Below are positions 126-56,086 of a stretch of DNA of 64,000 nucleotides, piece by piece. Location of the stretch: contig JASXTE010000008.1 of the NCBI GenBank assembly GCA_030280995.1, positions 7,025,001-7,089,000 on the forward strand, read 5' to 3'. The notes beneath the pieces were generated by a model, which made no database searches, was not told the origin of the DNA, and saw nothing but the letters and a program-made list of their open reading frames with translations. This DNA is from Hemileia vastatrix. Its lineage: Eukaryota; Basidiomycota; Pucciniomycetes; Pucciniales; Zaghouaniaceae. The position numbers and the translations under genes are program-made. Within the stretch, counting starts at the first letter, position 1. Every line of letters starts with the position of its first letter.

Positions 126-1445
126 TTAATCTTTACCCTCACTCAAGACAGCTTCAAACAATAATAAAGCAACGTCCTTAAATAAAGAAATTAATTTAGA
201 TGTTATTTCTTCATCTGGTAACTTATATGAGAATTTCAAGTTGTCAATTCTTTGAATAAAATGTTGCCAATCAGAGCTGGCTTCCCCATCATAAGTTGGG
301 TACTGATCTATCTTAGGCCAGTTTTTCTGATTGTATTTTATCTCACTAATCTTAGGCAAATTCAATAACTCATTTACTCTTGATAAATGGTCTTGTATTT
401 CCTCTTGTACGTATTTGTGACTTACATTTTCATATTTGACACTACCACCAGATGGTTTAAGTTGTGGTGGTATAGGGAAGGAATGAGATTCACTTTTGCC
501 AATGAAAGGATTATTATTATATTGATTATACTTATGATTATCCTGGTTCATTAGTAGATTGGCAGTTTCAATCTCAACTTTAGTTAATCTTTGTAGCAAC
601 TCAAAGACACTTTGATTTGTCTGGGAAAAAGATAACTTAGTTCTTGATTCAGTTTTCAATAAATGTGTTTCATACAATTTTTCCAACTCACAGAATTTGT
701 TTGAAATTTCATTATATTTACTACTCAATGAATCGTATTTAAGAGTTAGAGACAAATGTTCATTCTCTAATTCTTTATTATGTGTTGCCAGTTGAGAAAT
801 ATTTAATGTTAAGGATGAAATTGTATCACTAGTGAGCTTAACTGTCTGTTCCTCACAATCAGTCATTCTATTCCACAATGCTGAAACAATTCTATGGACA
901 GTTGGATTATTGTTAAAATATTCCATGTCTTCCTTTTCAATTGTCTCACTCTCCTGTGAACTTCTCATCTAACTAGTAGATGGTGGCAACTGAGGATTAA
1001 CTGTATTATCATTATAAATAGTACTGTCATTGTGGACAAAAGACAAGTCAGGTGTATCTACTCTAAAACCTAAATTTCCTAAGTCCTCCTCTATTTTCTG
1101 CACAGATTTTACATCAATAGGATTACCTATATTGTAATTATAAGTATTGTGTTCAATCTGAGAAGGTAATCTACTTACCATGGGATAGATGCCAGTCCTG
1201 ATTTTTGGAGCTTTTTTCCTTTGTAAGGGTGAATTGAGGAAGTCTGATGAGGTGGTGGATCCCTCTTGCAGCTGTGGCTGGTCCATTGTTGATGGAACCT
1301 GTCCCACTTCCATTTGTCTACCAGGCTTTTCTCCTGGGAGTGAGTTGACCCGCCTGGGATAGGGGGTTGCTGACTTGGTTGACTTGGCTGGCCTCCCTTT
1401 AACTCTGCCAGTGTCTGATTCATTTGTTGAAACCCTACCTTGCAA
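126..1445 (-). pseudogene. D Gag, main frame, split by an in-frame stop
   Basis: Two adjoining open segments (1445-969 and 968-126) lie in one frame, separated by a TAG at 971-969. The upstream part is Ser/Thr/Pro/Lys-rich. The downstream part has a long heptad-rich coiled-coil stretch and then the start of the capsid domain seen in the other elements (NWPKIDQYPTYDGEASSDW, then SKLISLF). The normal W of the V-A-L-M-W motif is altered (VALLLFE). After a TAA at 128-126 the bases towards position 1 still resemble capsid sequence, so the gene is decayed but recognisable. It should supply the structural capsid of the element. Confidence 0.75.
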
Positions 1446-1730
1446 TTGTTCTGTAATTGCTCTACCTCTTTGAACATAAGTGCCTTGGATTCTTCCAACT
1501 TCAAAACCTGTTTGGCCAAGTGGGATAGTTGATCCTGAAGAGGAGGAGACGTCTTTTTTATGGTTATCTTTTTTAAAAGGGCTTCTTTTTCCTATATGCT
1601 CATGTTCTCTGCCTGGGGGTATTGCTGACCCTCCTTAGTTATGTCCTGGATAGTTTTTGTTAGCTTTAGACCTGGTATTATAAGCAGGCTTGTCACTTAC
1701 ACTGTCCTGAGGAGCACTTATATTTTTAAT
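1127..1730 (-). pseudogene. D alternative spliced ORF overlapping gag
   Basis: In the second frame the region is laid out as in the A and B elements. A putative exon 1 ends at 1701. A GT-AG intron at 1700-1646 (55 nt) has GTAAGT, GCTAAC and TCCAG. Exon 2 (1645-1179) is followed by a second GT-AG intron at 1178-1127 (52 nt) with GTAAGT. Exon 2 encodes the family hallmarks WKWD, then IHPYKGKK, and ends in IPW-stop. It is damaged: a TAG sits near the start of exon 2, and no ATG is visible in exon 1 (an ATA is at the likely place). Both intron lengths leave remainder 1 on division by three, as in the other copies. Confidence 0.6.
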
Positions 1731-6678: not shown

Positions 6679-7352
6679 ATGACTGACCAAAGTGGTTCTG
6701 CTTCACGTAAAGAGGAAATAGACTTGATTGATTATGATGAGCCTACTTCTGTAAGTTCTCCTTTAACAAGAAGAATTTCTCAGATTAATAAATCCTTGCC
6801 CCAAACAGGATGTTGAGATGGAAGAAGTGGAAATCCTAGTAGATACAACTCAGGAACAGAAGCCTGTGATAAACCCACCAGAAGAACTTCCAAAAGGCTT
6901 CAGGATAAAAAAGATGCCATTGCCTCAACAGGTAAAGAATCTGTCAACTCACATAAAGGAGCTAAGAACAGAAAACTTGAGACTAAAGGCAAGGGTAGAT
7001 GCTCTGGAAGAAAAGGTGAGAAAGATAGATACCTTTCTTCAAGAGAAGAAGAAACCTCTTCCTCCCAGGGATCAACAACAATTGGCTCCCCAGTCCCAAG
7101 AGAAGGTGGAAGTGTCCAAGTGGCAGTGGGACTGGTTAAACACTCAGTGGGACTACCTGTCTCAAAATCAGCATCAGTTACCTCAGGCAGGTCCATCAAG
7201 GCTCACCCAGGTCAACCCCACTCCTCCCCACCCTTATCAAGGAGGCAAAAGAAGAAGAAAGCCCAATATGGTGGTACCCAGCAAACCCTGGTACATCCCT
7301 CTATTGATTCTCAGGTGCCTTTTCTTGTGGCTGATTCTGTTCTTTCAGGTAA
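6679..7352 (+). CDS. A1 accessory protein from spliced RNA, overlapping gag
   Basis: Exon 1 (6679-6750) encodes 24 residues starting MTDQSG and rich in Asp/Glu. A GT-AG intron at 6751-6808 (58 nt, GTAAGT to ACAG) separates it, in phase 0, from exon 2 (6809-7290). A second GT-AG interval at 7291-7348 (58 nt, GTACAT to TTTCAG) leads to GTAA, which gives Lys-Pro-Trp-stop. The product is about 185 residues: acidic start, LPKGFRIKKMPLPQQ, a coiled coil (about residues 60-105), WQWDWL, then a Pro-rich HPYQGGKRRR tail. If intron 2 is retained, the frame runs on to 7378 through a hydrophobic stretch. There is no known family match; the role is unknown, perhaps RNA or capsid binding. Confidence 0.6.
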
Positions 7353-27805: not shown

Positions 27806-28950
27806 ATTGGGATCCTCTCCGAAATATTGACGGCGCAACATTACTTGAGGCGTAATCGAGGGGACCATCGGCGTACAAGTACCTGTAAAGGACGAGTGGA
27901 GGCGAGAAAACAACGAACGTCATACGTCACGTGATAAAAGTTTTTGCTGCGAATGGGAATAGAACCGCGCTCCAAAAATTAAGCTCATATACTGACTAAA
28001 GATCGTATATATCATGGTAATTATTGTTATTACTATTTGTGGGTTACTCTTCACTCTTCATTTGCTACATATTTCCTTTTACTCAGCACTCTGTAAGTGG
28101 CATTAATTTGCTCATTTTGCAGGGGAAGGTGTCTGGTAATTTGGAATTTAATTTTATTATTATATTTTTTTTTATTTTTCCTGGTTGACCATAATAGAGC
28201 AATAACTGTTCTTAGCCCCAGAAGTAATAAAATAATTATATTTTAATATTAATTATCATTTTTCAGTTGACAATTGTCCTGATTAATTTGAATTTTAATT
28301 GTTCCAGTTGATAAATTGTCCTGACAATAATATTTTTTATTAAATAAAATAATTATTATAATTTTTCAGTTGACATTTGTCCTGATTAATTTAAATTTTA
28401 ATTGTTCCAGTTGACAAATTGTCCTGACAATTATATTTTTTTTATTAATAAATAATTCACATTTAATTACTTCAGTTGACTTTGAGTCCTGGTAATCCAA
28501 TAAATCTTTTTAATTAATAAAACTCATATTTAATTACTTCAGTTGACATTAAGTCCTGGTAGTTAAGTGATCAGTAATAAAATTTTAAAATAAAACTTCA
28601 TATTTAATTACTTCAGTTGACATTAAGTCCTGGTAGTTAAGTGATCAGTTAAAATAATTTTTTTTATTAATAAAGATTCATATTTGATTATTTCAGTTGA
28701 CAATAAATCCTGGTAATAAATTAGTTGATTTAAATCCTAAAAATAAAAATTAATAGAAATTCTAACTTATTTCTACAGTTGATTGTATTATCCTGGTTTT
28801 AAATTTTTCTTTTATTAATTTTATTTAAGTTGATTTTTATCCTAAAAAGATTTTTTTTATATTATTTTTATTTTATTTCTGTTAAATAAAAATTAAAAAT
28901 AAAGACTAATTAATTTTTGTCTCTTTCCTTCATTTCAGTAGAATCTTAAA
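27806..28950 (+). repeat. A2 PBS and repeat-bearing leader
   Basis: No gene is seen. The PBS is at 27808. GTAAGTGG lies near 28093 in ACTCTGTAAGTGG. About ten AGTTGAC...GTCCTG units follow between roughly 28183 and 28850, the clearest near 28536 and 28612 (CAGTTGACATTAAGTCCTGG followed by TAGTTAAGTGATCAG). TTTCAG ends at 28938, 12 bp before the ATG. The pattern parallels A1 unit by unit. Confidence 0.6.
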
Positions 28951-29623
28951 ATGACTGATCAAAGTGGTTTTGCTGCACGTGAAGAAGAACTAGACTTAAT
29001 TGATTATGATGAGCCTACTTCTGTAAGTTCTCCTTTAACAAGAAGAATTTCTCAAACTAATAAATCCTTGCACCAAACAGGATGTAGAAATGGAAGAAGT
29101 AGAAATCCTAGTGGAAAATACTCAGGATCAGAAGCCCATGACAAACCCACCAGAAGAGCTTCCAAAAGGCTTCAGGATAAAAAAGATGCCGTTGTCTCAG
29201 CAGGTAAAGAATCTGTCAACCCACATAAAGGAGCTAAGGACAGAAAACTTGAGACTAAAGGCAAGGGTAGATGCTCTGGAAGAAAAGGTGAGAAAGATAG
29301 ATACCTTTCTTCAAGAGAAGAAGAAACCTCTTCCCCCCAGGGATCAACAACAATTGGCTCCCCAGTCCTAAGAGAAGGTGGAAGTGTCCAAGTGGCAGTG
29401 GGATTGGTTAAACACTCAGTGGGACAACCTGTCTCAAAATCAGAATCAGTTACCTCAGGCAGGTCCATCAAGACCCAGCCAGGTCAACCCCACACCTCCT
29501 CACCCCTATCAAGGAGGAAAAAGAAGAAGAAATCCCAATATGGTCATACCCAGCAAACCCTGGTACTCCCCTCTATTGATTCTCAAGTGCCTTTTCTTGT
29601 GGCTGACTCTGTTCCTTCAGGTA
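28951..29623 (+). pseudogene. A2 accessory ORF from spliced RNA (one stop)
   Basis: Exon 1 is 28951-29022; intron 1 is 29023-29080 (58 nt, GTAAGT to ACAG); exon 2 is 29081-29562; intron 2 is 29563-29620 (58 nt, GTACTC, CTGAC branch, CTTCAG), then GTAA. The product matches that of A1 (LPKGFRIKKMPLSQQ, coiled coil, WQWDWLN, HPYQGGKRRR) except for a TAA at 29369-29371 where A1 has CAA. The same base change is only Pro to Leu in the overlapping Gag frame. Confidence 0.6.
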
Positions 29624-32587
29624 AATCTGGAAGGCAGGATGAAACCTTGAGACCTATAGAGGCTGGGAATAGTAGACAGATATCTCATGTATCTAATCCA
29701 TTAATTTTAATTGCTACCTCAATAATTAATCCTGATATGGCTGTGATTGATGAAAATCATGACCCTGAGTTCTATGAGAGTCTGGAAAGTTACTCAGTTT
29801 CCTTATTGAGAAACACTCCAGATGTAGCAAGAATTAATGATGAGCACTTGAGAGATATTATTGCCAAGCAAAATCATATAATGAACAATATGCGATTGAC
29901 TCAAGATATAATAGTTTTTAACTGATCAGGGTTATCAAGCATTAAAAAGTGAAGCACAGAGAGTCTCTGATGAATTGTCTCATTACAAAGCAACCCATGA
30001 AAAGAAAATTGCTTTATGGCAAAATATAAAAAATGATTTGTCTAAACTAAAAGATACTGTATCTGCCTGTTGCCAGGAGGTAGAGATAGATAAGATAAAT
30101 CTGAAAAGATTGAGTGACCATTTGTCATCTTTTCAACATAAAAATCAATTATCTTTTGCAATTATCAATGAAAGTTTATCTAGTCTTCCAAGAATGAAAA
30201 CAAGACTAACAACCATTGAAGAAAAATTGAACTCATTGTTAAATGACCAAAAATATTCTGACATTTCTGTGAAGGAACATATAGTGCAGGATGCTCAACC
30301 AGTACCTGTGGCTAGTTCATCTAAAATAAAAATTGATCCAGAAATACCTGTTGATAACACTGAGTTTCCATCAAAAACTGATGATGCACCAGGATCTGCA
30401 ACAGAAGGATTAAACAATGAGATTTCAGCACAATTAGAGAAATTACAGCTGCTTCTTACTCAGAAACAAGCTAGTACTAAGGAGACTCCTTAAAATCAAA
30501 AGAACTGGCCAAAACTTGACCAGTACCCAACATTTGATGGTGATTCTTCTTCTGATTGGCAACAATTTATGTGCAGAATTGATAATTTAAAAAATTCTTA
30601 CAAACTCCCAGATGAGGAAATTGTGTCCAAGTTAATTTCTTTGTTCACTAATGTTGCCCTGATGTGGTATGAATCTGTTCTCCTGGATGGGAATGACTAC
30701 TCATGGGAGGATTGGAAGAAATTAATTAAAGCACAATTTGGTGGCTCCAAGTTCAGAATGGCTCAACAAAGGCAGTATGAGGAAACTAGATATAGCTCTT
30801 CTGCTGATAAACCTATTGATTTTTTAATGAAACTTGTAAAAGTCTTAAGGGCAATGGACCCAAATATGGAGTTTGATTTATGGAAGGACAGGATCCTCTA
30901 TAAATTACCAATGTCTCTGAGAGACTTGATTGTGGCTAGGACTGAGTTCTCCAAAGAACCCTCTTCTTTCATTAATACTTGCAATGAGATACTTCTAAAC
31001 AATAAGTATGATGCAAGAAGATTCATTCCTAGGACCCCTTTGGAGAAACCCTCCACTTACCAACAAAAACCTCTGGAAAAGGTTGGTAAACCTTCTGCCC
31101 CTGTTGCACCAAAGAAGTATGCAACAAACACTTGCTTCAAGTGCAACAAGCCTTGGCAGAAAGGCCATGTTTGTGACAAGAAGATAAATCTTGTAGAACA
31201 AACAGAGGAGCATGCTGATGACACAGTGGCACTGGATGATACATCAAGTGATTGTGCCAGCAATATTTCATATGAATCTCAACAAGAAATCTTGATGCTG
31301 GAAGAAGATATTCATTATTTAAATACTATTGACATTGATAATAATGATTTATCTACAGTTGAGGATGCTGAGATCATAAAGAACATTGAGGATAACTCAA
31401 TTGTTATTGCCCCTCTTAAGGCACCAGTCTTGATCAATGGAACCAGCATTGAAGTTGTTCTGGATTCTGGAGCTGGAGGAAGTGTAGTATCTGAAAGAGC
31501 ACTTGCTTCAGTAGATCAAGACTATAAATCTAAACTGTTGCCTATCATTTCTGAAAATCAGAGAGGGTATGGCTCTGTTTTGTCCCCCATTGGTAAATAC
31601 AAAGCTACAGTGTTTTTTAAATATAACCATGGTTTCGTAAGAGCTATTTGTGATTTTGTTTTCATGAAAAATGATAACTTGAGCAATTGGTTTATTGTAG
31701 GGAATGATATTTTAACCAAGTATGGCATAAAATTGGATCCTTCAAACCAATGTTTCACAATGGGGATGAATGGGAAGAGAAAATTTAAAATTTCCTCCCC
31801 TAAAAAATTATTAAAACCAGAATTGAACACATGTAATTCTGTGGTTCAATATAAAGGAAGATCTACAAAGGAAATGCATGCCCTTATGTCTAAAATTGAC
31901 AATGCTTCTTTTGGAGAACAACTTTCTGGTGAGGATAAAGATTCCATCATTAACTTGATAAAATATTTTCCTATGGCCTTTGCTCATGGGTCACATGAAC
32001 TGGGATTAGTTAAAGAGGAAATGAAACTTTCATTGTCTTTCCCATTAACTGATATACCACCTAGTTTAAAGAAGAAGCCTTATCCTGCTTCTCCCACAAA
32101 GAGAAAAGATGTTGAAGATAATATCTCTACCCTTTTAAAAATGAATATTATTGAAAAGGTAGTTGAAACACCTAAACATTGTGTTATCTCACCTGTCCTA
32201 ATTTCTTATGAGAAAGATAAAGCCAGGTTATGTGGTGATTATAGAGCACTAAACACCTATACTGTTGATGATATCTATCCTTTACCTAGAATCAGCTCTA
32301 TACATGCTACTTTACAGGGTGCTAAATATATCAGCTGTTTGGATGGTAATAAGGGATATCACCAGGTACCTTTTGAGAAAAATTCTCAGAACTTTCTGAT
32401 TATTGCCACTCACATGGGTATTTATAAGTATATTAGGATGCCATTTGGCCCTAAAAATGCCCCTTCAGTTTTCCAAAAAGTAATGGATAACACATTCCAT
32501 CAAGGAATATTTGAAGGTTGGCTGATGGTTTATATTGATGATATCATTATATTCTCAAAAACATTTGAGGACCATCTTAAACACCTG
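28951..32587 (+). pseudogene. A2 Gag-Pol, part 1: Gag, zinc knuckle, protease, RT up to the B1 insertion
   Basis: The unspliced frame is open from the ATG at 28951 through intron 1 and exon 2 to about 29925, where a 2-nt loss (ACTCAAGAT against ACTCAGAGAT in A1) shifts it. It resumes at 29975 and has a TAA at 30491 (Ser TCA in A1), then is open to 32587. Domains: capsid about 30500-31110, zinc knuckle CFKCNKPWQKGHVC near 31135, protease DSGA near 31465, RT with GDYRALNTYTVDD and YIDD at 32531-32542. B1 enters right after the DHLKHL codons. The split parts rejoin at 41331. Confidence 0.92.
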
Positions 32588-33725
32588 TGTCAGCCAGGCT
32601 ATTCCAGGAGTCCAGTAAATGATATATAAATTATAAAACCTTAAAGAGTGGGTAAGAATTGTATTTAATGAATATAACTTAATATTTTATTGCATAATGA
32701 AATTATATAAGTATTTTATTATATACAAGTGTTACATTAAATTTATTGGTTATATATATTTTTATATACAGTTAAATTGAGCATAATATAATATATTCTA
32801 CAAATAATGGCGCATTTTTATGTATTTAATAATTATAAATTTATATTTAATTAATTCAAAAACATATATTATAATTATAAGTGTAAAATTGATTTATAAT
32901 ATATTTAAATTAATTACTTAAATTTATATATTAAATAATACCTCTCATATGATACTAAACAATAATTAATGACGCTTCTTTTGACCCTTAATTGTGTTAG
33001 AAAAAACAAATAAATTAATTTGGACTAAATTGAGATTAATTGCATGTTTTGTTGCGTCAAATTATTTTTTGTTTCACTTAAAATGTCCTTTAATCAGACT
33101 GTACCATCTGTTTGGAATTATTTTTCTCATAGTTCCTATGTTCCAATCTTGTTTAGTTATTCACTATTTTTCACTTACTGATTTGGGAATTAATGACGGG
33201 AAAATTGGATTCTTAATTGGAATTTTAATTAATTGTTTCATGTTTTTCTCTATATTGTTATGTTTCATTTACTCTTTTGATATATTTGTTTTACTTCATT
33301 CTAATCATTGTATTTACAAAGATAGTAGCGCTTCAGAGGACCCATTGCCTATAAAAGGGCCTTGGATAATCCCCTGTAGCCTCATCACTTATTACACACT
33401 CAACAAATTAAATAACCAATTTATTACGTTTATATTTTTTTTATTAGTAATACAAATCTAATTTAAATTCTATAAAACAAATCAAAGGTTGCTTTAAGTC
33501 TGATAGTAATTAAAATTGTTTGCTGCGCAGAACCATTACATTTAATAATACTATTGTTAATAAAATCTAAGTTTTTGTCACCTCTCAAAGTTGCTCACCG
33601 TTGTTTCCCTCTCAAATAAATTAAATATATATTCTTTGGTTTATTTCTTTGTTTTCCCTTGTCCTCCTCCTTCTCTCCTCCTTTTTCTCCTATTTTTCTT
33701 ACCTCTTCTAGACGACTGACCGACA
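32588..33725 (+). repeat. B1 5' LTR
   Basis: The 1138-bp LTR runs TGTCAGCCAGGCTATTCCAGG to GACGACTGACCGACA. A PBS TGGGGACCTTTCC follows at 33728-33740. A hydrophobic open frame without ATG (32994-33461) recurs in the 3' LTR only by duplication and is not called. Confidence 0.95.
33350..33356 (+). promoter_or_regulatory. TATA box in B1 5' LTR
   Basis: TATAAAA in TTGCCTATAAAAGGGCC, matching the A-type LTR promoter context. Confidence 0.7.
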
Positions 33726-34417
33726 ACTGGGGACCTTTCCAAAACGACGACGACGATCGAGCCTGGCGACGAACGACAAAACGCACGGACCACCTAGCAA
33801 AACAAAACTTTTGCCGCGACTGTGTTTCGATCTTGGGTTTGACATCTTAGGTTTATATAATATTAATTTTTATATTATTTTGAAGTGATTTTTTGATCAC
33901 TATAGTAAGTTCACCTTTGCGCCTCTCACTCATATTACTATATTTTTATTGCAATAACAGTGATTGTGGCTTAATTGCTGATTCACTGAGTGTAAGTGTT
34001 CAATTTAAAAAAAATTTTTTTTTCCTAGTTGACCATTATAGAGTGTTAAATCCTCTTAGTCCTAGAAGAATTGACATTATTATTAATACAAATTGAATTA
34101 TTAATTTAATTTTTTTTTATTATTAATTATTGTTAATTTTGGTTGACTTAAAAGTACATTGTGCTTAGTCCCAATATATTGCCATATTTAATATTGGTAA
34201 TTAATTGGTTGAATTAACTTACTTGTTATTCCCAATTTAACCTTGCAATCCGTTTTTTTTAAAAAAATTAATTTTTTAATTATTACTTTATATTGAAAAT
34301 TATTTTTTCTATAATTTAATTAATTAAATATTTTTTTTTATTATTTGGAGCAATTATTGACTAACTTTTATTATTTTTTTATAAAGTAAAAAGTAAATTA
34401 TAAATCTTCCCACTAGT
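33726..34417 (+). repeat. B1 PBS and leader
   Basis: No gene is seen. The PBS is at 33728-33740. GAGTGTAAGTG near 33990 is the counterpart of the A leader donor. Only about three GTTGAC...TAGTCCTAG/TAGTCCCAA units are visible (34028-34240), fewer than in the A elements. The rest is AT-rich. Confidence 0.55.
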
Positions 34418-35099
34418 ATGTCCAACAATTTGGCAGAAAAAATGGATAACATGCAAGTGGATGAGATAGAAATTGACTATGATGCTGACACTGTAAATTC
34501 TTCTAAAGTTGGTCATAAAAAATCTTATTCTAACACAAAGAATTCACATACTGCAGGATGTGGAAATGACAGGAAATGCAAACAAACCAAACCCCCTTCC
34601 CCCAGTACCACAGAAGGAAGTAAAGCCTCTAGTGCCTCAAGAAGGTCTTCCAAAAGGCTTCAAAATAAAAAAGCTTCCTCTTCCACAACAAATCAGCAAC
34701 CTATACAGTCATATAAAAGAGTTGAAGACAGAAAATATGACGTACAAAGCAAAGGTAGACACATTGTGGGATCAGGTCCAAGAACTCAGGAACCAGATTC
34801 AGGCCCAGGCCCCTCCTCAGTTGCCTCCCAATCAGCCTCAGTTTCAGGCTCAACCTTCACAGCCACCCAGCTCAACCATCCAAAATCCAAATACTATGGA
34901 AGTAGAGCAATGGAAATGGGATTATCTAATGAGTTACTACCAACAGAATGTGCAACACCCTCCTCATCATCAGCCTGGCCCATCCAGAACACCCAATTTC
35001 CATCCACCTCCTCATCCCTACCAACAAGGCAGGAGAAAGAAGGCCCAAGCACAATCCCAAACCCAGTCCCAGGGGAAGTTTCCTCCTCTGCCATGGTAA
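34418..35099 (+). CDS. B1 accessory protein from spliced RNA, overlapping gag
   Basis: Exon 1 (34418-34492, 25 codons, MSNNLAEKMDN) is followed by a GT-AG intron at 34493-34556 (64 nt: GTAAAT, TTCTAAC branch, CTGCAG). Exon 2 runs 34557-35095, giving about 205 residues ending PLPW-stop. The stop TAA lies inside the donor of a second GT-AG intron (35096-35153, 58 nt: GTAAGT, TTCTAAT, CTGCAG); splicing of that intron recreates TGG-TAA. Features: acidic start, LPKGFKIKKLPLPQQ, coiled coil (about residues 75-125), Gln/Pro-rich linker, EQWKWDYL, HPYQQGRRKK. The frame is fully open and conserved with A1. Function unknown. Confidence 0.65.
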
Positions 35100-36112
35100 G
35101 TAATTTGGTTGATAGTCACTTGGGTATGTTTTCTAATAAATCTTCTTCTGCAGGTAATATTATTGAATATGGTGAAAGAACAGTTAAACCTGTTAAAAGA
35201 CAGCTTCCTGTAACTAGTAGCCCTATTGATGTAATTAGCAAATTGTCATTTGATGAACCTTTACATTTAACTTCTACATCTTTAATTAATCCTTCTCTTG
35301 CAATTAAAAATGATTCTGTTCCCCCTGAAATCTATACCTTAATTGAAAAAACTTCTGAGGAAATATTGAAAGATACCCTTGATTTTAATATTGTGAAAGA
35401 CAAACATGTGAGAGATGTGTTAATCCATGAAAATGATGGATTAAATAATTTACACTTGAAATGTAAAGTAAGTTCTTCTGTACAAGATACAGCTTATTTA
35501 AAAATCAAAGAAATCTTGAAGATTGTTCTTAGTCAAGAAAAACAAATAAGAAGTGACCATAGAGCTAACTCAGATAGAAATATCAGTCTACATAAGAGCT
35601 TGAGTGAATTGAAACCCCTTATTGAGGAAAATTATTCATTCAAGAATGAAATAAAATCTCTGCAAAATGAGTTTAAGAAGCTAAAAAATGATTTCCATGC
35701 ACTAAGTACCAAACACTCAGTTTCTGAGGACAGAAATGTTCTATCTCTTGCAAAAGTAAATGACCAGATGTCTGAAACTCCAAGAATAAGAAACTATGTG
35801 TCTGACCTACAGGAAAAGTTCTCAACCTTAACCATCAATAATGAATTAAATGAGATTTCTGCAAATAAGCTGCATAAAAATAAAGGGAAAAAACCTGAAC
35901 AAAGTTCATCCTTTCTTCCTCATATTTCAACCATTAAACAAACTGACAATGAGTCTGTAAAATCTTTTGCTACTAGCAAAAAATCTTGTGATGGTCATGC
36001 ACCAGCTGTTTCTGTAAATAATGAAATTTCTGAACACCTGGCTAAACTTCAGGAATTATTACTAATGAATAATTCAAAGCAAAAAGATTACCAAATTCTC
36101 TTAGGGATTTGA
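34418..36112 (+). pseudogene. B1 Gag, main frame, capsid deleted
   Basis: The frame is open from the ATG through the unspliced intron for 564 codons. After a Ser/Lys-rich head (overlapping the accessory ORF) come the conserved helical domain (PPEIYTLIEKTSEEIL), a coiled coil (LKSLQNEFKKL type) and the linker before the capsid. At about 36080 the sequence jumps from NSKQK to the RDLIVARTEH region. By comparison with B2 (deleted counterpart about 48619-49045) some 427 bp are missing. That removes most of the capsid and shifts the frame, so the protein ends at 36112 and Pol is out of frame. Confidence 0.85.
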
Positions 36113-39100
36113 TTGTTGCTAGAACTGAGCATGTAAGGGAAAATTCTTCTTTCATTAATATCTGTAATGAAGTACTACTCAACCATAGATATGAACCAAA
36201 GAATTACCTTAGTAAATCTTATAATGATCAGAATAAACCTTCTATAAAGCTCCCAGAAAAATCTGGTAAACCCTCTGCCCCAGTTGCACCTAAAAAATAT
36301 GCAACAAATACTTGTTATAAATGTAACAAACCGTGGCAGAAGGGTCATGTTTGTGACAAGAAAATTCATCTTGTTGAACAAAATGAAGACACTGATGAAA
36401 TTGAACTTGATGTCTATAATTCTTCCAGTGACTGTGAAAGTAATATCTCCTATGACAATGAATCTGTTAAAGATGTTTTAATGTTGGAACATGATGTCCA
36501 TTATTTAAATAATATATCTGAAGATTGTGTATTGAATTTATCTTCAGTAGAAAATGCTGAGATAATTAAAGATATTACTAACAATTCTATTCCTATATCC
36601 CCTTTAAAGGCACCTGTTATCATTAATGGTAAAAATGTTGATGTAGTTCTTGATTCTGGTGCTGGAGGAAGTGTAGTATCTGAAAAAGCTTTGGCTTCAG
36701 TGTATAAGGAATATTTGAGTAAATTATTGCCTATAACTTCTGAAAAATGGAGAGGGTATGGTTCTACCTTATTTCCTATTGGCAAATACAAAACCTCTGT
36801 ATTCTTCAAATATAATGGTGGTTTTGTCAGAGCTATTTGTGAGTTTGTTTTCATGAAAAATGATAATTTGAGCAATTGGTTTATTATGGGAAATGATATT
36901 TTAACCATGTTTGGTGTGAAACTGGATCCAGCAAATAATTGCTTTACTTTAGGAATGAATGGGAAAAGAAAATTCAAAATTTCTTCTCCTAGACCTTCTG
37001 GGCATTTGTTGAAATCTTGTAACTCACTGACCCAATGTAAAGGTAGAACAACAACTGAAATGGATGATTTATTACATGAAATAAATACCGCTTCTTTTGG
37101 TGATCAGTTGACTAGTGAACAAAAGGATTCTATTGTTGCCTCTATTACCTCTTTCCCTATGGCTTTTGCTCATGGTTCTCATGTCTTGGGAATTGTTCAG
37201 GAAGAGATGAAAATTACCTTATCCTGTAATTTGAGTGATATTCCTCCTTCCCTTAAGAAAAAACCATATCCTGCTTCTCCATCAAAAAGAAAAGATATTG
37301 AAGATAATATTGAAACATTATTGAAAATGAATATCATTGAGAAAGTGGATGTCACCCCCAAATATTGTGTCATCTCCCCAGTCTTGATTTCATATGAAAA
37401 AGATAAAGCTAGATTATGTGGAGATTATAGAGCTTTAAATACTTATACTGTTGATGATATTTATCCTTTACCCAGAATTAATTCAATACATGCTACCTTG
37501 CAAGGTGCAAAATTTATTAGTTGTCTGGATGGTAATAAAGGTTATCATCAAGTTCCAGTTGAAAAAAATTATCAAAATTTTTTGCTAATTGCTACTCATA
37601 TGGGAATATATAAGTATGTTAGAATGCCATTTGGCCCTAAAAATGCTCCTTCAGTTTTCCAGAAAGTTATGGATAACACTTTCCATCAAGAAATTATTGA
37701 AGGTTGGCTCATGGTTTATATTGATGATATTATTGTTTTTTCTAAAACTTTTGATGAACATATGATTCACTTGAATAGAGTTTTCCAAAAAATGGATGAA
37801 ATCAATATGACCTTATCCTTAAAAAAGTGTAAATTTGGTTTTCAATCTTTGAAATTCCTTGGCCATGTTGTGTCAGGCTTACAAATTTGTGTAGACCATA
37901 ATAAAGTTGCTGCCATTCAAAATGTGAAAGCACCAACTTCTGTAAGAGAAATCCAAAGTTTTTTGGGTATGTGTGGCTATTATAGACAATATATTAAAAA
38001 TTATCAGGTCATAGCCTTGCCTCTTACAAAACTAACCAGAAAAGATGTTGCTTTTCTCTGGAATAATGACTGTCAGAAAGCTTTTAATACATTGAAAAGT
38101 TGCTTAATGACAGCCCCTATATTGGCTCTTCCAGATTTTAACAAGCCATTTGTACTTTATACAGATGCTAGCTTTATTGGTCTGGGTGCTGCCCTTCACC
38201 AAAAGCAAATTATTAATGATAAATCCTCAGAGGTTGTAATTTGTTATATTTCAAGAACCTTAAGAAATAGTGAATTGAAATATGGTGCCACTCAATTGGA
38301 GTTCTTAGCAGTTGTTTGCGCTCTTGAGAAACTTCATTACTACTTGGATGACCAAAAATTTGAGTTGGTAACTGACTGTAGTGCTGTGAAATCTCTCTTA
38401 AACCTCAAAACACCTAACAGACATATGTTCAGGTGGCAACTTGCTGTTCAGGAATACAGAGGAAGGATGACTATTATCCATAGAGCTGGAAATGTTCACT
38501 CCAATGTTGATATGCTCTCCAGATTGCCTCTGCCAAATAATGACTCCAATCCTGCTTATGTTCCTGAAGATGATACTGTTCATATACATGGTATATTTAT
38601 AGTTGATATGGAAGAAGAGTTATTACAGTTAATACTGGATTCATATGATAAAGATTCTGACTTAAATAAATTAGTTACTATTTTGAATGATCCTAAGAAT
38701 GCTTCAATTCAAGCATTAATAAAAACTCTTCCTGCAAAGTACCAAAATGCTTTAAATAAAGGAAAGTTTTCTAATGAAGATGGTTATATATATTATAGAA
38801 GGAAGCTTACCAATGTAATTGTTATTCCTCCTTCAATGAAAGAAACTATCCTCAAACTTTGTCATGATGACATATTAGCTGGACATTTTGATCTTGAAAA
38901 AACATTGATTAGAATCAAAAACACTGCATGGTGGGCTAATATGTCTGAAGACACAAAATTATATGTTGAATCTTGTGATTCCTGCCAAAAATCTAAAAGG
39001 TTAACAGGTAAGAGAGCAGGGTTATTACAACATATTGAAGCACCTAGTGCTCCCTGGCAAATCATTAATATGGATTTTGTCACTGGTCTTCCAGTTGCAG

Positions 39101-40158
39101 GTAAAGACAGCTTTAACTCTTGTTGGGTAATAGTTGATAGATTCACAAAAATGTGCAAATTTATTCCAACCCACAAAGATGTATCCACCAAAGAATTAGC
39201 TTTCTTATGGTGGTCTTACATGTTTACTATTATTGGTTTTCCAAAAGCCATTATCTCTGATAGGGATCCTAAATTTACTTCTGAGTTTTGGACCTCTTTG
39301 ATGGATATTTGTGGCTGTGAGTTAAAATTGTCTACAGCTCACCATCCTCAGACTGATGGTCTAGCTGAAAGAAAGATTCAAACTCTGGAAGATATGATTA
39401 GAAGTTATTGTGCCTTTGGTTTAGAATATAAAGACAATGACAGATTTACTCATGATTGGGTCACTCTTTTGCCTGGTCTTGAATTTGCATATAATAGCAC
39501 TGTTCATTCTGTCACTGAGAAAAAGCCTTTTGAGCTTTGGTTAGGTTATGTCCCAAACACTCCTGCTCAGATTCTCAATAATAAATTACCTAAGTTGGAA
39601 CTACACCCTGGTGTAAAATCTTTTATGCAAATGCAACAGCTATGCAGAAAACATGCTCAGAGTTGTATTGATAAAGCATTTGAATATGAAAAGAAAAGAT
39701 GGGATAAATCCCATAAAGAATACACATTTAACAAGGGTGATGAAGTGTTGATCTCTACTGTCCATTTCAATTTACAAGGTAACCACAAATTAAAAGATCC
39801 TTTTGTAGGACCATTTGTTGTTAAAAGAATGGTTGGTGATAATGCAGTAGAAGTTGTATTGTATTCTCCATATGATAGGAAACATCCTGTCTTTCCCATT
39901 TCTTTGCTTAAACCTTATACTTCCAACAGTGACTTATTTCCAAAAAGAAGAGGAAGACCTAAGAAGAACCCTCAGGAAGTCACAGAAACAGCAGAAATTG
40001 ATAAAATTCTCAATGATAGAATTATCACTTCTGAAAGAGGTACTGAATATTTATTGAGATATAAGAACAAATCATCTGAACATGATGCATGGATACCTGG
40101 CAAGGAAATTTCAAATCTGCCTGCTCTGTTGAAAATATACAAAAAGAAAAAATCTTAG
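36109..40158 (+). CDS. B1 Gag C-terminus and Pol (intact frame)
   Basis: This frame of about 1349 codons is open to a TAG at 40158. Residues are counted from 36109; the true start is upstream and lost. Zinc knuckle C69, C72, H80, C82; protease D182 in DSGAGG; RT with YIDD at 537-540; RNase H with YTDAS (D686); integrase H919, H926, C956, C959 and catalytic D989, D1051, E1087 (35 residues between the last two). Then a GPY/F-like segment (DPFVGPFVVKRM), AT-hook-like KRRGRPKK at 1279-1286 and a chromodomain-like module at about 1293-1332. All catalytic residues are present. Because of the gag deletion the copy would need capsid supplied by another element. Confidence 0.93.
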   Translation: MIVARTEHVRENSSFINICNEVLLNHRYEPKNYLSKSYNDQNKPSIKLPEKSGKPSAPVAPKKYATNTCYKCNKPWQKGHVCDKKIHLVEQNEDTDEIELDVYNSSSDCESNISYDNESVKDVLMLEHDVHYLNNISEDCVLNLSSVENAEIIKDITNNSIPISPLKAPVIINGKNVDVVLDSGAGGSVVSEKALASVYKEYLSKLLPITSEKWRGYGSTLFPIGKYKTSVFFKYNGGFVRAICEFVFMKNDNLSNWFIMGNDILTMFGVKLDPANNCFTLGMNGKRKFKISSPRPSGHLLKSCNSLTQCKGRTTTEMDDLLHEINTASFGDQLTSEQKDSIVASITSFPMAFAHGSHVLGIVQEEMKITLSCNLSDIPPSLKKKPYPASPSKRKDIEDNIETLLKMNIIEKVDVTPKYCVISPVLISYEKDKARLCGDYRALNTYTVDDIYPLPRINSIHATLQGAKFISCLDGNKGYHQVPVEKNYQNFLLIATHMGIYKYVRMPFGPKNAPSVFQKVMDNTFHQEIIEGWLMVYIDDIIVFSKTFDEHMIHLNRVFQKMDEINMTLSLKKCKFGFQSLKFLGHVVSGLQICVDHNKVAAIQNVKAPTSVREIQSFLGMCGYYRQYIKNYQVIALPLTKLTRKDVAFLWNNDCQKAFNTLKSCLMTAPILALPDFNKPFVLYTDASFIGLGAALHQKQIINDKSSEVVICYISRTLRNSELKYGATQLEFLAVVCALEKLHYYLDDQKFELVTDCSAVKSLLNLKTPNRHMFRWQLAVQEYRGRMTIIHRAGNVHSNVDMLSRLPLPNNDSNPAYVPEDDTVHIHGIFIVDMEEELLQLILDSYDKDSDLNKLVTILNDPKNASIQALIKTLPAKYQNALNKGKFSNEDGYIYYRRKLTNVIVIPPSMKETILKLCHDDILAGHFDLEKTLIRIKNTAWWANMSEDTKLYVESCDSCQKSKRLTGKRAGLLQHIEAPSAPWQIINMDFVTGLPVAGKDSFNSCWVIVDRFTKMCKFIPTHKDVSTKELAFLWWSYMFTIIGFPKAIISDRDPKFTSEFWTSLMDICGCELKLSTAHHPQTDGLAERKIQTLEDMIRSYCAFGLEYKDNDRFTHDWVTLLPGLEFAYNSTVHSVTEKKPFELWLGYVPNTPAQILNNKLPKLELHPGVKSFMQMQQLCRKHAQSCIDKAFEYEKKRWDKSHKEYTFNKGDEVLISTVHFNLQGNHKLKDPFVGPFVVKRMVGDNAVEVVLYSPYDRKHPVFPISLLKPYTSNSDLFPKRRGRPKKNPQEVTETAEIDKILNDRIITSERGTEYLLRYKNKSSEHDAWIPGKEISNLPALLKIYKKKKS

Positions 40159-40180
40159 CATTTTTTTTATTGTTTTTTTT

Positions 40181-40192
40181 AGAGTGAGGGAG
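40181..40192 (+). other. B1 polypurine tract
   Basis: AGAGTGAGGGAG directly before the 3' LTR, preceded by a T-rich run. Confidence 0.85.
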
Positions 40193-41330
40193 TATCAGCC
40201 AGGCTATTCCAGGAGTCCAGTAAATGATATATAAATTATAAAACCTTAAAGAGTGGGTAAGAATTGTATTTAATGAATATAACTTAATATTTTATTGAAT
40301 AATGAAATTATATAAGTATTTTATTATATACAAGTGTTACATTAAATTTATTGGTTATATATATTTTTATATACAGTTAAATTGAGCATAATATAATATA
40401 TTCTACAAATAATGTCGCATTTTTATGTATTTAATAATTATAAATTTATATTTAATTAATTGAAAAACATATATTTTAATTATAAGTGTAAAATTGATTT
40501 ATAATATATTTAAATTAATTACTTAAATTTATATATTAAATAATACCTCTCATATGATACTAAACAATAATTAATGACGCTTCTTTTGACCCTTAATTGT
40601 GTTAGAAAAAACAAATAAATTAATTTGGACTAAATTGAGATTAATTGCATGTTTTGTTGCGTCAAATTATTTTTTGTTTCACTTAAAATGTCCTTTAATC
40701 AGACTGTACCATCTGTTTGGAATTATTTTTCTCATAGTTCCTATGTTCCAATCTTGTTTAGTTATTCACTATTTTTCACTTACTGATTTGGGAATTAATG
40801 ACGGGAAAATTGGATTCTTAATTGGGGTTTTAATTAATTGTTTCATGTTTTTCTCTATATTGTTATGTTTCATTTACTCTTTTGATATATTTGTTTTACT
40901 TCATTCTAATCATTGTATTTACAAAGATAGTAGCGCTTCAGAGGACCCATTGCCTATAAAAGGGCCTTGGATAATCCCCTGTAGCCTCATCACTTATTAC
41001 ACACTCAACAAATTAAATAACCAATTTATTACGTTTATATTTTTTTTATTAGTAATACAAATCTAATTTAAATTCTATACAACAAATCAAAGGTTGCTTT
41101 AAGTCTGATAGTAATTAAAATTGTTTGCCGCGCAGAACCCTTACATTTAATAATACTATTGTTAATAAAATCTAAGTTTTTGTCACCTCTCAAAGTTGCT
41201 CACCGTTGTTTCCCTCTCAAATAAATTAAATATATATTCTTTGGTTTATTTCTTTGTTTTCCCTTGTCCTCCTCCTTCTCTCCTCCTTTTTCTCCTATTT
41301 TTCTTACCTCTTCTAGACAACTGACCGACA
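40193..41330 (+). repeat. B1 3' LTR
   Basis: The 1138-bp LTR is the same length as the 5' copy and nearly identical to it. It ends GACAACTGACCGACA and is followed by the ACCTG duplication. Confidence 0.95.
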
Positions 41331-47800: not shown

Positions 47801-50713
47801 TTAAAATATCATTTCCCATAATAAACCAATTGCTTAAATTATCATTTTTCATGACAAAAAACTCACAAATAGCTCTGACAAAACCACCATTATATTTGAA
47901 GAATACAGAGGTTTTGTATTTGCCAATAGGAAATAAGGTAGAACCATACCCTCTCCATTTTTCAGAAGTTATAGGTAATAATTTACTCAAATAATCCTTA
48001 TCCACTGAAGCCAAAGCTTTTTCAGACACTAGACTTCCTCCAGCACCAGAATCAAGAACTACATCAACATTTTTACCATTAATGATAACAGGTGCCTTCA
48101 AAGGGGATATAGGAATAGAATTGTTAGTAATATCTTTAATTATCTCAGCATTTTCTACTGAAGGTAAATCCAATACACATTCTTCAGATATATTATTTAA
48201 ATAATGGACATCTTGTTCCAACATTAAAACATCTTTAACAGATTCATTGTCATAGGAGATATTACTTTCACAGTCACTGGAAGAATTATTGACATCAAGT
48301 TCAACTTCATCAGTGTCTTAATTTTGTTCAACAAGATGAATATTCTTGTCACAAACATGACCCTTCTGCCATGGTTTGCTACATTTATAACAAGTATTTG
48401 TTGCATATTTTTTAGGTGAAATTGGGGCAGAGGGTTTACCAGATTTTACTGGGAGTTTTGTAGAAGGTTTATTCTGATCATTATAAGATTTACCAAGGTA
48501 ATTCTTTGGTTCATATCTATGGTTGAGTAGTACCTCATTACAGATATTAATGAAAGAAGAATTTTCCCTAACATGCTCAGTTCTAGCCACAATCAAATCT
48601 CTAAGAGAATTTGGTAATTTATACAAGATTTTATCTCTCCAAATATCATAATCCATCTTTGGATCAATTGCCCTTAGGATCTTTGTCACTTTCATAAGAA
48701 AAACAATGGGCTTTTCAACAGAGGAGAATACATATCTAGTATTCTCATCCAGTCTTTGCTGAGCTAACCTGAATTTTGAACCACCAAACTGATTCTCAAT
48801 CAAGGATTTCCAATTATTCCATGTATAATGATTGTTATCTAAAAGAACAAATTCATACCACATCAAGGCTACATTGGAAAATAAAGAAATTAGCTTAGAA
48901 ACAATTTCCTCATCAGTTATTTTATAAGATCTCTTTAAACTATCAATTCTTTGGATAAAGTGTTGCCAATCAGAGGAAGAATCACCATCAAAGGTAGGAT
49001 ATTGGTCTAACTTAGGCCAATTTTTCTGACTACTGGGATGGTCCACTTTTTGGTTTGAATTATTCATTATTAATAATTCCTGAAGTTTAGCCAGGTTTTC
49101 TGAAATTTCATTATTTACAGAAACAGCTGGTGCATGACCATCACAAGATTTTTTGCTAGTAGAAAAAGATTTTACAGACTCATTGTCAGTTTGTTTAATG
49201 GTTGAAATATGAGGAAGAAAGGATGAACTTTGCTCAGGTTTTTTTCCTTTATTTTTATGCAGCTTATGGACAGAATTCTCATTCATACCATTATTGATGG
49301 TTAAGGTTTAGAATTTTTCCTGCAGGTCAGACACATAGTTTCTTATTCTTGGAGTTTCAGACATCTGGTCATTTACTTTTGCAAGAGATAGAACATTTCT
49401 GTCCTCAGAAACTGAGTGTTTGGCACTTAGTGCATGGAAATCATTTCTTAACTTTTTAAACTCATTTCGCAGAGATTTTATTTCATTTTTTAATGAATAA
49501 TTTTCTTCAATAAGGGGTTTCAATTCACTCAAGGTCTTATGTAGACTGATATTTCAATCTGAGATAGCTCTATGGTCACTTCTTATTTGTTTTTGCTGAC
49601 TAAGAATAATATTCAAGGCTTCTTTGATTTTTAAATAAGCTGTATCTTGTACATAGAACTCACTTTACATTCCAAGTGTAAATTATTTAATCTATCATTT
49701 TCTTGGATTAACACATCTCTCAAATGTTTGTCTTTCACAACATTAAAATCAAGGGTATCTTTCAATATTTCCTCAGAAGTTCTTTCAATTAAGGTATAGA
49801 TTTCAGGGGGAACAGAATCATTTTTAATTGCAAGAGAAGGATTAATTAAAGATGTAGAAGTTAAATGTAAAGGTTCATCAAATGACAATTTGCTAATTAC
49901 ATCAATAGGGCTACTAGTTACAGGAAGCTGTCTTTTAAAAGGTTTAACTGTTCTTTCACCATGTTCAATAATATTACCTGCAGAAGAAGATTTATTAGAA
50001 AACATACCAAAATGACTAGCAACTAAATTACTTACCATGGAAGAGGAGGAAACTTCCCCTGGGACTGGGTTTGGGATTGTGCTTGGGCCTTCTTTCTCCT
50101 GCCTTGTTGGTAGGGATGAGGAGGTGGATGGAAATTGGGTGTTCTGGATGGGCCAGGCTGATGATGAGGAGGGTGTTGCACATTCTGTTGGTAGTGACTC
50201 ATTAGATAATCCCATTTCCATTGCTCTACTTCCATAGTATTTGGATTTTGGATGGTTGAGCTGGGTGGCTGTGAAGGTTGAGCCTGAAACTGAGGCTGAT
50301 TGGGAGGCATCTGAGGAGGGGCCTGGGCCTGAATCTGGTTCCTGAGTTCTTGGACCTGATCCCACAATGTGTCTACCTTTGCTTTGTACGTCATATTTTC
50401 TGTCTTCAACTCTTTTATATGACTGTATAGGTTGCTGATTTGTTGTGGCAGAGGAAGCTTTTTTATTTTGAAGCCTTTTGGAAGACCTTCTTGAGGCACT
50501 AGAGGCTTTACTTCCTTCTGTGGTACTGGGGGAAGGGGGTTTGGTTTGTTTGCATTTCCTGTCATTTCCACATCCTGCAGTATGTGAATTCTTTGTGTTA
50601 GAATAAGATTTTTTATGACCAACTTTAGAAGAATTTACAGTGTCAGCATCATAGTCAATTTCTATCTCATCCCCTTGCATGTTATCCATTTTTTCTGCCA
50701 AATTGTTGGACAT
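44847..50713 (-). pseudogene. B2 Gag-Pol, main part (broken)
   Basis: Read from the ATG at 50713: Gag head open through unspliced intron 1 to about 49631, a frameshift, coiled coil at 49532-49308, capsid and zinc knuckle at 49286-48318 (NWPKLDQYPTFDGDSSSDW; CYKCSKPWQKGHVC), protease at 48224-47670 (DSGAGGSLVS), then RT and RNase H at 47321-46053 with YIDD, and integrase pieces at 45953-44980. Stops include a TAA near 48319 (Glu in B3). The HHCC, MDFVTGL, SDRDPKFTSEFW and TDGLAERMIQ motifs remain. A2 interrupts it at 44846, and the last part lies at 26998-26692. Confidence 0.92.
50032..50713 (-). CDS. B2 accessory protein from spliced RNA, overlapping gag
   Basis: Exon 1 is 50713-50639; intron 1 is 50638-50575 (64 nt, same motifs as B1); exon 2 is 50574-50036, ending PLPW-stop; intron 2 is 50035-49978 (58 nt). 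The frame is fully open. It differs from B1 by few residues (for example MPPNQPQ against LPPNQPQ), while the rest of B2 gag-pol has collected several stops and frameshifts. Both frames of the overlap remain open here. Confidence 0.62.
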
Positions 50714-55407: not shown

Positions 55408-56086
55408 ATGACTGATCAAGGTGCTTCTGCTGGCCATGATGAGGAACTGGATTTAATCGATTATGATGAAGCTTCTTCTGTAAATTATCTTTTGACTAAA
55501 AAACTGGCTCAAATTAATCAATTACTGGACCAATCAGGATGTTGAAATGCAGGAGATAGAGATATTAGTGGAGACAACTGCTCAGGATCAAAAGCCTTCA
55601 ATCATCCCCCCAGAAGAGCTTCCAAAAGGCTTCAAAATTAAAAAGCTGCCCTTGAATCAGAAAGTTAAAGTCTCCACTCACATCAAGGAGTTAAGGTCAG
55701 AAAACCTCAAGCTGAGTTCAAAAACAGACTCTCTAGAAGACAAAGTAAGAAAAATAGAGTCCTTCCTTCAAGAGAAAAGGAAACCTCCCCCTCCCCCAAA
55801 ATCCTTTTCACAATTGTCTCCCCAGTAACAAGAAAAGGTGAAAGTCTCAAAGTGGCAGTGCAATTGGCTGAACACCCAGTGGGATTATCTCTCCCAACAA
55901 CAACAACAAAAAGTACCTCAGGAAGGTCCTTCAAGAACCAATCTATTAAACTCCTCACCTCCTCACCCCTATTAACTAGGAAGAAAGAGAAAAAACTATC
56001 ACATTAAATTCTTGCCAAAGCCATGGTAAGCCCCTCTATTGAATCTCAAGTACCATTTCTAGTTACTGAATCAGTTCCTTCAGGTA
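55408..56086 (+). pseudogene. C accessory ORF from spliced RNA (broken)
   Basis: Exon 1 is 55408-55479 (MTDQGASAGHDEEL); intron 1 is 55480-55537 (58 nt, GTAAAT to TCAG); exon 2 is 55538-56025; intron 2 is 56026-56083 (58 nt, GTAAGC to CTTCAG), then GTAA. Hallmarks LPKGFKIKKLPL, coiled coil, WNTQWDYL-like and PKPW-stop are kept. TAA codons at about 55826-55828 and in HPY-stop near 55975 break it. The intron positions, lengths and phases are those of A1 and A2. Confidence 0.6.

Follow-up and report, generated by a model that had tools for sequence, protein, structure and literature searches.

A candidate spliced accessory gene overprinted on the 5′ end of gag in a chromovirus of Hemileia vastatrix

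In complex retroviruses, alternative splicing typically gives access to overlapping genes. Among long terminal repeat (LTR) retrotransposons, one clear counterpart came up among the matches listed from the open-access literature, the Cer1/CERV system of nematodes. In C. elegans, the Ty3/Gypsy element Cer1 expresses CERV through a spliced mRNA with exons 1–3 in the gag frame and exon 4 in another, and cerv mutations abolish cytoplasmic genomic RNA and GAG expression; Rev of retroviruses is described in the same source (PMC10309623). Unspliced as well as spliced mRNAs are also reported for the LTR retrotransposons BARE1 (PMC3735527) and EVD (shGAG; PMC8892269). Here we analyse a 64-kb stretch of the genome of the fungus Hemileia vastatrix (GenBank assembly GCA_030280995.1, contig JASXTE010000008.1, positions 7,025,001 to 7,089,000; "the window", to which all coordinates below refer), in which a Ty3/gypsy chromovirus appears to encode a second protein, here called P2, in another frame over the beginning of gag.

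We consider it likely that gag of this element is overprinted at its 5′ end by an accessory gene, with unspliced RNA giving Gag(-Pol) and the genome, and spliced RNA giving P2. This reading is supported by the two frames themselves, by the differing selection upon them and by genomic copies that lack exactly an intron; splicing of the RNA today, translation of both products and the role of P2 are inferred.

Exons, introns and copies of the 5′ gag region

The window contains this region six times, in copies belonging to four lineages (B1 and B2, A1 and A2, C, D). Each copy has a predicted GT-AG intron (intron 1) of 64 nucleotides (nt) in B1 and B2, 58 nt in A1, A2 and C and 55 nt in D, that is, always of 3n+1 length, and its removal shifts translation from the Gag frame to the P2 frame. 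A preliminary description of the window had claimed such an intron in all six copies, 72–75 nt after the ATG and leading into a conserved second frame: the intron lengths, the frame change and the motifs named there were all recovered, and so was an exon 1 of 72 nt (A, C) or 75 nt (B), while copy D has no ATG at the exon 1 position. The N-terminus encoded by exon 1 is common to Gag and P2 and includes IDYD in A, B and C. The features of copy B1, followed by the other five copies, are:

33726..34417, forward strand: leader without ATG; acceptor-like TTCCCACTAG one base 5′ of the start codon
34418..34492, forward strand: exon 1, 25 codons, with the start and N-terminus common to Gag and P2
34493..34556, forward strand: predicted intron 1, 64 nt, GTAAAT...CTAAC...GCAG; the Gag frame is open through it
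34557..35095, forward strand: exon 2, apparently dual-coding for P2 (amino acids constrained) and the Gag frame (kept open)
34667..34673, forward strand: A AAA AAG heptamer in the P2 frame (IKK motif), a possible −1 frameshift site
35096..35153, forward strand: predicted intron 2, 58 nt, GTAAGT...CTAAT...TTCTGCAG
35154..35157, forward strand: start of exon 3, G-TAA; splicing of intron 2 would rebuild TG|G-TAA (P2 Trp-stop)
34418..36112, forward strand: Gag reading frame of unspliced RNA, fused in B1 at 36086/36087
49978..50713, reverse strand: copy B2; ATG 50713, intron 1 50638–50575, exon 2 50574–50036, intron 2 50035–49978
6679..7348, forward strand: copy A1; exon 1 6679–6750, intron 1 6751–6808, exon 2 6809–7290, intron 2 7291–7348
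28951..29620, forward strand: copy A2; exon 1 28951–29022, intron 1 29023–29080, exon 2 29081–29562, intron 2 29563–29620
55408..56083, forward strand: copy C, broken in both frames; exon 1 55408–55479, intron 1 55480–55537, exon 2 55538–56025, intron 2 56026–56083
1127..1700, reverse strand: copy D, diverged; intron 1 1700–1646, exon 2 1645–1179, intron 2 1178–1127

The Gag frame passes through both introns. In B1 it is open over 34397–36112 and the P2 frame over 34497–35099; B2 likewise has no Gag-frame stop, in agreement with the preliminary description, which had both frames open in B1 and B2. Across the genome, 92 loci (30 + 30 + 12 + 20, including window copies A1, B1 and B2) were aligned from exon 1 to exon 3. 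Intron 1 donors read GTAAGT or GTAAAT and acceptors CAG; in family B, whose donor and frame counts refer to 29 parsed loci (L025 left out), the donor is GTAAGT in 26, GTAAAT in the window copies B1 and B2, and GTAATT in L026.

A second intron-like segment (intron 2), falling within the interval 35090–35160 that the preliminary description proposed to check but not described there, lies at the P2 stop. It measures 58 nt in A, B and C and 52 nt in D, ends in CAG or TAG and is followed by GTAA. At its 5′ end, B, C and D carry a GTAAGT or GTAAGC donor, and among the 29 A loci that have the segment, 24 carry GTANGT or GTANGC; the window copies A1 and A2 have GTACAT and GTACTC. When intron 2 is retained in B1, P2 ends in TGG-TAA (stop at 35097–35099), and in B1, B2, C and D alike P2 ends in this Trp-stop at intron 2, spliced or not, no search having been made for a distant exon reached via other sites. 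Uncut A DNA reads TGGTAC or TGGTAT in 28 of 30 loci (exceptions L041 and L054), so that the Trp-stop would arise there only upon intron 2 removal. A return to the Gag frame through removal of both introns was considered and rejected, since intron 2, too, is 3n+1 (58 or 52 nt) and its removal rebuilds the P2 Trp-stop. With intron 2 retained, P2 of A1 gains a hydrophobic tail (YIPLLILRCLFLWLILFFQVNL; 7291–7375), which may be a mere by-product of the Gag frame. In L056, a 2-nt deletion in the intron 2 segment aligns the P2 frame with downstream Gag in a 993-amino-acid (aa) open frame.

The leaders have features of their own. An acceptor-like TTTCAG or CTCTCAG occurs a few bases 5′ of the start ATG in A1 (6650–6666) and at the matching places in A2 and C; GTAAGT occurs far upstream in A and B and, together with the acceptor before the ATG, suggests a possible leader intron. 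Precise removal of the leader, as expected from an intron with its 3′ end next to the start ATG, was looked for in 59 aligned copies (29 B, 30 A) and found in none. Tandem repeats of ~67–82 bp (TTCATATTTAATTACTTCAGTTGACATTAAG...) are present in the leaders of A elements (6124–6463 and 28437–28757); other A copies differ in leader length at these repeats, whose copy number seems variable.

Selection on the P2 and Gag frames

The comparison free of any copy selection is that between pairs of window copies. In exon 2, changes at P2 codon positions 1/2/3 number 6/4/22 (A1–A2), 36/27/79 (A1–C) and 40/28/69 (A2–C), with a chi-square test of the third-position excess giving P=1e-4 for A1–A2 and 8e-8 for A1–C. 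The ratio of nonsynonymous to synonymous substitution rates (dN/dS) in P2 is 0.16, 0.10 and 0.15 for these three pairs, versus 2.21, 1.68 and 1.32 for the Gag frame over the same exon; for the Gag frame just downstream it is 0.49, 0.20 and 0.27. This pattern points to amino-acid constraint on P2 within exon 2 and on Gag after it, and over the shared DNA (0.10–0.16 versus 1.3–2.2) it is not the Gag-only constraint that the preliminary description had named as evidence against its own proposal. For pairs with B1, dS in P2 is saturated; identical residues between A1 and B1 number 69/156 in P2 versus 43/147 in the Gag frame, which bears out the earlier impression that the spliced frame is the better conserved of the two between A and B. 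Within family A (31 rows, i.e. 30 loci plus A2), the ratio of synonymous to other variants of exon 2 in the P2 frame is 15:6 for variants common to at least three rows and 42:66 for singletons (P=0.008; with doubletons added to the former, 25:13 and P=0.005). For the Gag frame in exon 3 it is 18:16 versus 51:117 for singletons (P=0.017 without doubletons).

Over exon 2 the Gag frame shows constraint of a different kind. Any P2 codon with a final T creates a Gag-frame stop if the next codon begins with AA, AG or GA. T-ending P2 codons in this position number 0/45 in B1, 0/45 in B2, 1/55 in A1, 0/59 in A2, 1/46 in D and 4/54 in C, versus 43/133, 43/133, 29/104, 28/100, 24/108 and 26/107, respectively, elsewhere in the same exons. 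Pooled over one copy per family with the broken copy C excluded (B1, A2, D), the counts are 1/150 versus 95/341 (P=5e-16), and Pol, taken as a control, has no such avoidance (180/407 versus 416/894, P=0.47). An accidental second frame, due to base composition, would be in keeping with the elevated G+C of exon 2 (47% versus 30% over the following 600 nt of exon 3 in B1; 46% versus 33% in the surroundings in A2 and 46% versus 32% in D). Yet synonymous-codon shuffles that preserve the codons and protein of P2 still yield some 5–8 Gag-frame stops (on average 5.3–7.7 expected per copy), where 0 (B1, B2, A2), 1 (A1, D) or 4 (C, also broken in P2) are observed; the third frame of the same exon 2 DNA has 11–14, and the low P2 dN/dS (0.10–0.16) likewise speaks against an accident, which is disfavoured as the least probable of the explanations weighed here.

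From the ATG to the P2 stop the Gag frame is open in 20 of 30 A loci and 27 of the 29 parsed B loci. The leader of B1 (33728–34417, 690 nt) contains no ATG versus 10.4 expected, and that of B2, counted from the LTR on, one versus 8.8, a scarcity to be expected if ribosomes scan the unspliced leader to the shared start; counts for A1, A2 and C (one each, with 6.2, 14.2 and 9.6 expected) were not used, as these stretches began just before the nearest upstream ATG. Over the overlap, selection appears to act on the openness of the Gag frame, not on Gag amino acids, and constraint on P2 together with avoidance of Gag-frame stops suggests that both frames are read.

The preliminary description had cautioned that an early stop in A1, C and D left the start of Gag unclear in those copies. 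For A1 this is explained, since its TGA at the exon 2 start is private and absent from 41 other A-family loci (29 + 12); for C and D, with one copy each, the caveat stands. All three stops lie upstream of the A AAA AAG heptamer, as would suit an arrangement in which every transcript loses intron 1, P2 is the standard product and −1 ribosomal frameshifting at this site (IKK) leads from P2 into Gag; the Gag frame would then need to be open only downstream of it. The heptamer is in the P2 frame in B1, B2, A1, A2 and D, in 30/30 and 10/12 A loci and in all 29 parsed B loci; IKK in an A-rich genome favours A AAA AAG anyway, however, copies within one family are alike regardless, and copy C has ATTAAAAAG at the site. 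Moreover, the Gag frame is open above chance upstream of the heptamer as well, folds downstream of it, pseudoknots aside, are unremarkable, and the frameshift lost ground with the private nature of the A1 stop; we judge it unlikely.

Clearly less probable again is a restart, in which intron 1 is again removed from every transcript and ribosomes terminate P2 at ATGGTAA, then start anew at the ATG that overlaps the stop, yielding a shorter Gag. Such an overlap of the P2 stop with a Gag-frame ATG exists in B1, B2, C and D, and Gag-frame amino acids are constrained only beyond this point. A restart would nevertheless leave the openness of the Gag frame upstream unexplained, and family A has no ATG there in 30 aligned loci, CTGGTA being found in all except L041 (CTTGTA).

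Intron-less copies and the proposed mode of expression

Retroelements copy RNA into DNA, so that spliced RNA can leave intron-less genomic copies. The 92 loci contain four deletions of at least 10 nt, besides one 42-nt insertion (L012), and three of the four coincide exactly with predicted introns: intron 1 in L074 (A), and intron 2 in L054 (A) and L006 (B). L047, with a 229-aa frame, was rejected as an intron-less copy, its 19-nt deletion lying inside intron 1. L074, which carries the joined exon 1–exon 2 P2 frame in genomic DNA, was chosen since its 216-aa open frame suited a copy without intron 1; 18 of the 32 loci in the 12 + 20 added sets were chosen for unusual frame lengths, and L074 is the sole intron-less copy among these 18. 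The listed frame lengths of 150 A and 150 B places, most of them unread, confirmed no other copy without intron 1, and none of the copies read lacks both introns. Homology flanking the loss is 1 nt for intron 1 and 4–5 nt for intron 2; the exact loss of intron 2 in two families favours splicing over simple deletion. Nearly all copies read retain their introns, which implies that the RNA that is reverse transcribed is normally unspliced.

The existence of a genomic copy exactly without intron 1 also bears on the idea that P2 needs no splicing and that leaky scanning takes ribosomes to the DVEM ATG of exon 2, which A, B and C have in the P2 frame. Besides L074, other observations make this highly improbable: copy D lacks this ATG, families A and B have an A at −3 of the shared ATG, and the codons 5′ of DVEM vary synonymously in P2, both GTG/GTA/GTT and GAA/GAG.

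Under the reading we prefer, in which splicing gives P2 and intron retention gives Gag, full-length unspliced RNA would be both the genome and the Gag(-Pol) mRNA, read from the shared ATG, and Gag translation, to judge from the selection on openness, would cross intron 1, then exon 2 and intron 2 without interruption. If intron 1 (3n+1) is spliced out, ribosomes would enter the P2 frame, and the product would have a coiled coil, a helix with W-x-W-D and, in families A and B, a basic tail, its Trp-stop lying at or across intron 2. The preliminary description had proposed the same division between an accessory protein and Gag; splicing into P2 is supported by the frame-specific selection and by L074, exactly devoid of intron 1, and Gag from intron-retaining RNA by the avoidance of Gag-frame stops and the ATG-poor leaders of B1 and B2. 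An element in such a position must bring intron-containing RNA out of the nucleus, a task for which Cer1 depends on CERV. P2, made from spliced RNA alone, could, by the example of Cer1's CERV and of retroviral Rev, be a regulator of the unspliced RNA, most likely promoting its nuclear export or shielding it from splicing; that P2 acts on unspliced RNA in this CERV/Rev-like manner is a guess, and one with rather less than an even chance of being right.

A number of observations weigh against the preferred reading. Loss of intron 2 could reflect deletion between GGTA(A) repeats of 4–5 nt. The exon 2 start carries a Gag-frame stop in both C and D, each represented by one copy; upstream of A AAA AAG alone, openness is weaker (1/34 versus 14/62, P=0.016); the introns could each be open by chance (P 0.35 in A, 0.27 in B, 0.19 in D); Gag stops in repeated exon 2 variants versus singletons (0/38 versus 11/108) reach only P=0.07; and Gag-frame amino acids are unconstrained across the overlap. 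The P2 third-position excess is modest in B–A pairs (59/53/88 for B1–A1) and little or none in pairs with D (75/68/72 for A2–D, 63/55/75 for B1–D, 25/21/24 for C–D and 64/54/59 for B2–D), these comparisons being near saturation. The exon 3 Gag-frame constraint in family A, a weak control, loses significance with doubletons (27:51, P=0.56), and the A set was gathered by P2 similarity, with a possible bias. A classical export signal was absent from the four P2 sequences tried, and the search for relatives of the spliced protein suggested in the preliminary description returned none at E 0.001 or better, including with P2 of L074 as the query.

P2, its host element and known systems

The predicted P2 protein is about 185–205 aa long and contains a coiled coil. 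An AlphaFold model built from four sequences, of low overall confidence (mean predicted local distance difference test score, pLDDT, 63.8; predicted template modelling score, pTM, 0.27), has a long helix at 42–84 (pLDDT 88–96 over residues 41–80) and a less certain second helix at 111–133 over the WxWD motif (pLDDT about 70). A simple pattern detects heptads in A and D, not in B; a basic cluster is present in A (KRRRK) and B (RRKK), and D has none. Weak matches to bZIP and TSC22, below the cut-off, are consistent with a coiled coil, and a leucine-rich export motif was not found in P2.

The window (32% G+C) is made up of LTR retrotransposons nested in one another. The element that carries copy B1 comprises:

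32588..41330, forward strand: Ty3/gypsy chromovirus, host of copy B1, recognised by its LTR pair and Pol domains
32588..33725 and 40193..41330, forward strand: 5′ LTR (ending at 33725) and 3′ LTR, 1,138 bp, 99% alike
36073..40158, forward strand: Pol frame, with a CCHC-like knuckle (by eye), a protease-like region, reverse transcriptase (RT), RNase H, integrase, SH3_Tf2-1 and a chromodomain

By eye, the LTR ends are TG...CA, except that the 3′ LTR opens with TA instead of TG, and a 5-bp target-site duplication (ACCTG) is found at 32583–32587 and 41331–41335. Matches above the cut-off in Pol are RVT_1 (445–599), RT_RNaseH_2 (663–764), Integrase_H2C2 (918–975), SH3_Tf2-1 (1223–1282) and Chromo (1308–1359); rve (992–1092) and Asp_protease_2 (180–210) fall below it but are correctly placed. 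With RT, RNase H, integrase, SH3_Tf2-1 and chromodomain in Pol, and the order protease–RT–RNase H–integrase followed by the chromodomain, the element is a Ty3/gypsy chromovirus. At the B1 junction 36086/36087 the pre-capsid stretch of Gag is joined to the end of the presumed capsid, the segment between being lost; L031 retains the presumed capsid segment, broken by one stop. No Pfam capsid domain matched the Gag frame of L031, B1 being without the presumed capsid segment, and a protein search with a Gag frame found no relatives at E 0.001 or better. First-look P2 candidates in the genome (747.6 Mb, 791 contigs) number 19,332 in the search that gave the B places and 20,721 in the one that gave the A places, of which 150 each were scored; the family bearing P2 seems very abundant in this 748-Mb genome, most first-look places being unscored.

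Like the predicted P2, Rev-type proteins are encoded by spliced RNA of elements whose genomic RNA has to escape splicing. Rev-type exons of complex retroviruses lie around env and not inside gag, unlike P2. It is a tentative proposal, on which we would not insist, that a non-animal LTR retrotransposon has independently evolved a circuit like that of complex retroviruses, in which two tiny introns are spliced or retained to yield either an overprinted regulator of the element's own unspliced RNA or Gag. A second case besides Cer1/CERV, apparently fungal and in a very numerous family, would offer a test of how control over unspliced RNA evolves in the retroelements that produce it; with so many copies, selection on either frame can be measured directly, and annotation seeking a single Gag frame would miss P2. 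No fungal element whose gag is overprinted by a spliced gene was named in the titles and abstract openings listed from the open-access literature.

The preliminary statement that no named Ty3/Gypsy family has this arrangement needs qualifying, since Cer1 makes CERV by splicing into another frame (PMC10309623). As read from the DNA, P2 has in common with CERV a start and N-terminus common with Gag and an exon in another frame; the likeness extends to a Ty3/Gypsy host, an accessory protein from a spliced mRNA (predicted here), a leucine zipper, a candidate basic nuclear localisation signal, an acceptor before the start ATG and, in Gag, a helical coiled coil before the capsid, suggested in the window element by weak coiled-coil matches (PMC10309623). 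Unlike CERV, P2 lies wholly at the 5′ end of gag; the role of CERV was tested with mutants, whereas that of P2 is drawn from analogy, and the likeness described here is one of organisation (PMC10309623). In BARE1 and EVD, spliced RNA gives Gag itself, whereas the spliced frame of the window element is P2, which stops before the rest of Gag (PMC3735527, PMC8892269). Among the matches listed from the open-access literature, the nearest case is Cer1/CERV, with BARE1 and EVD being spliced elements of another kind.
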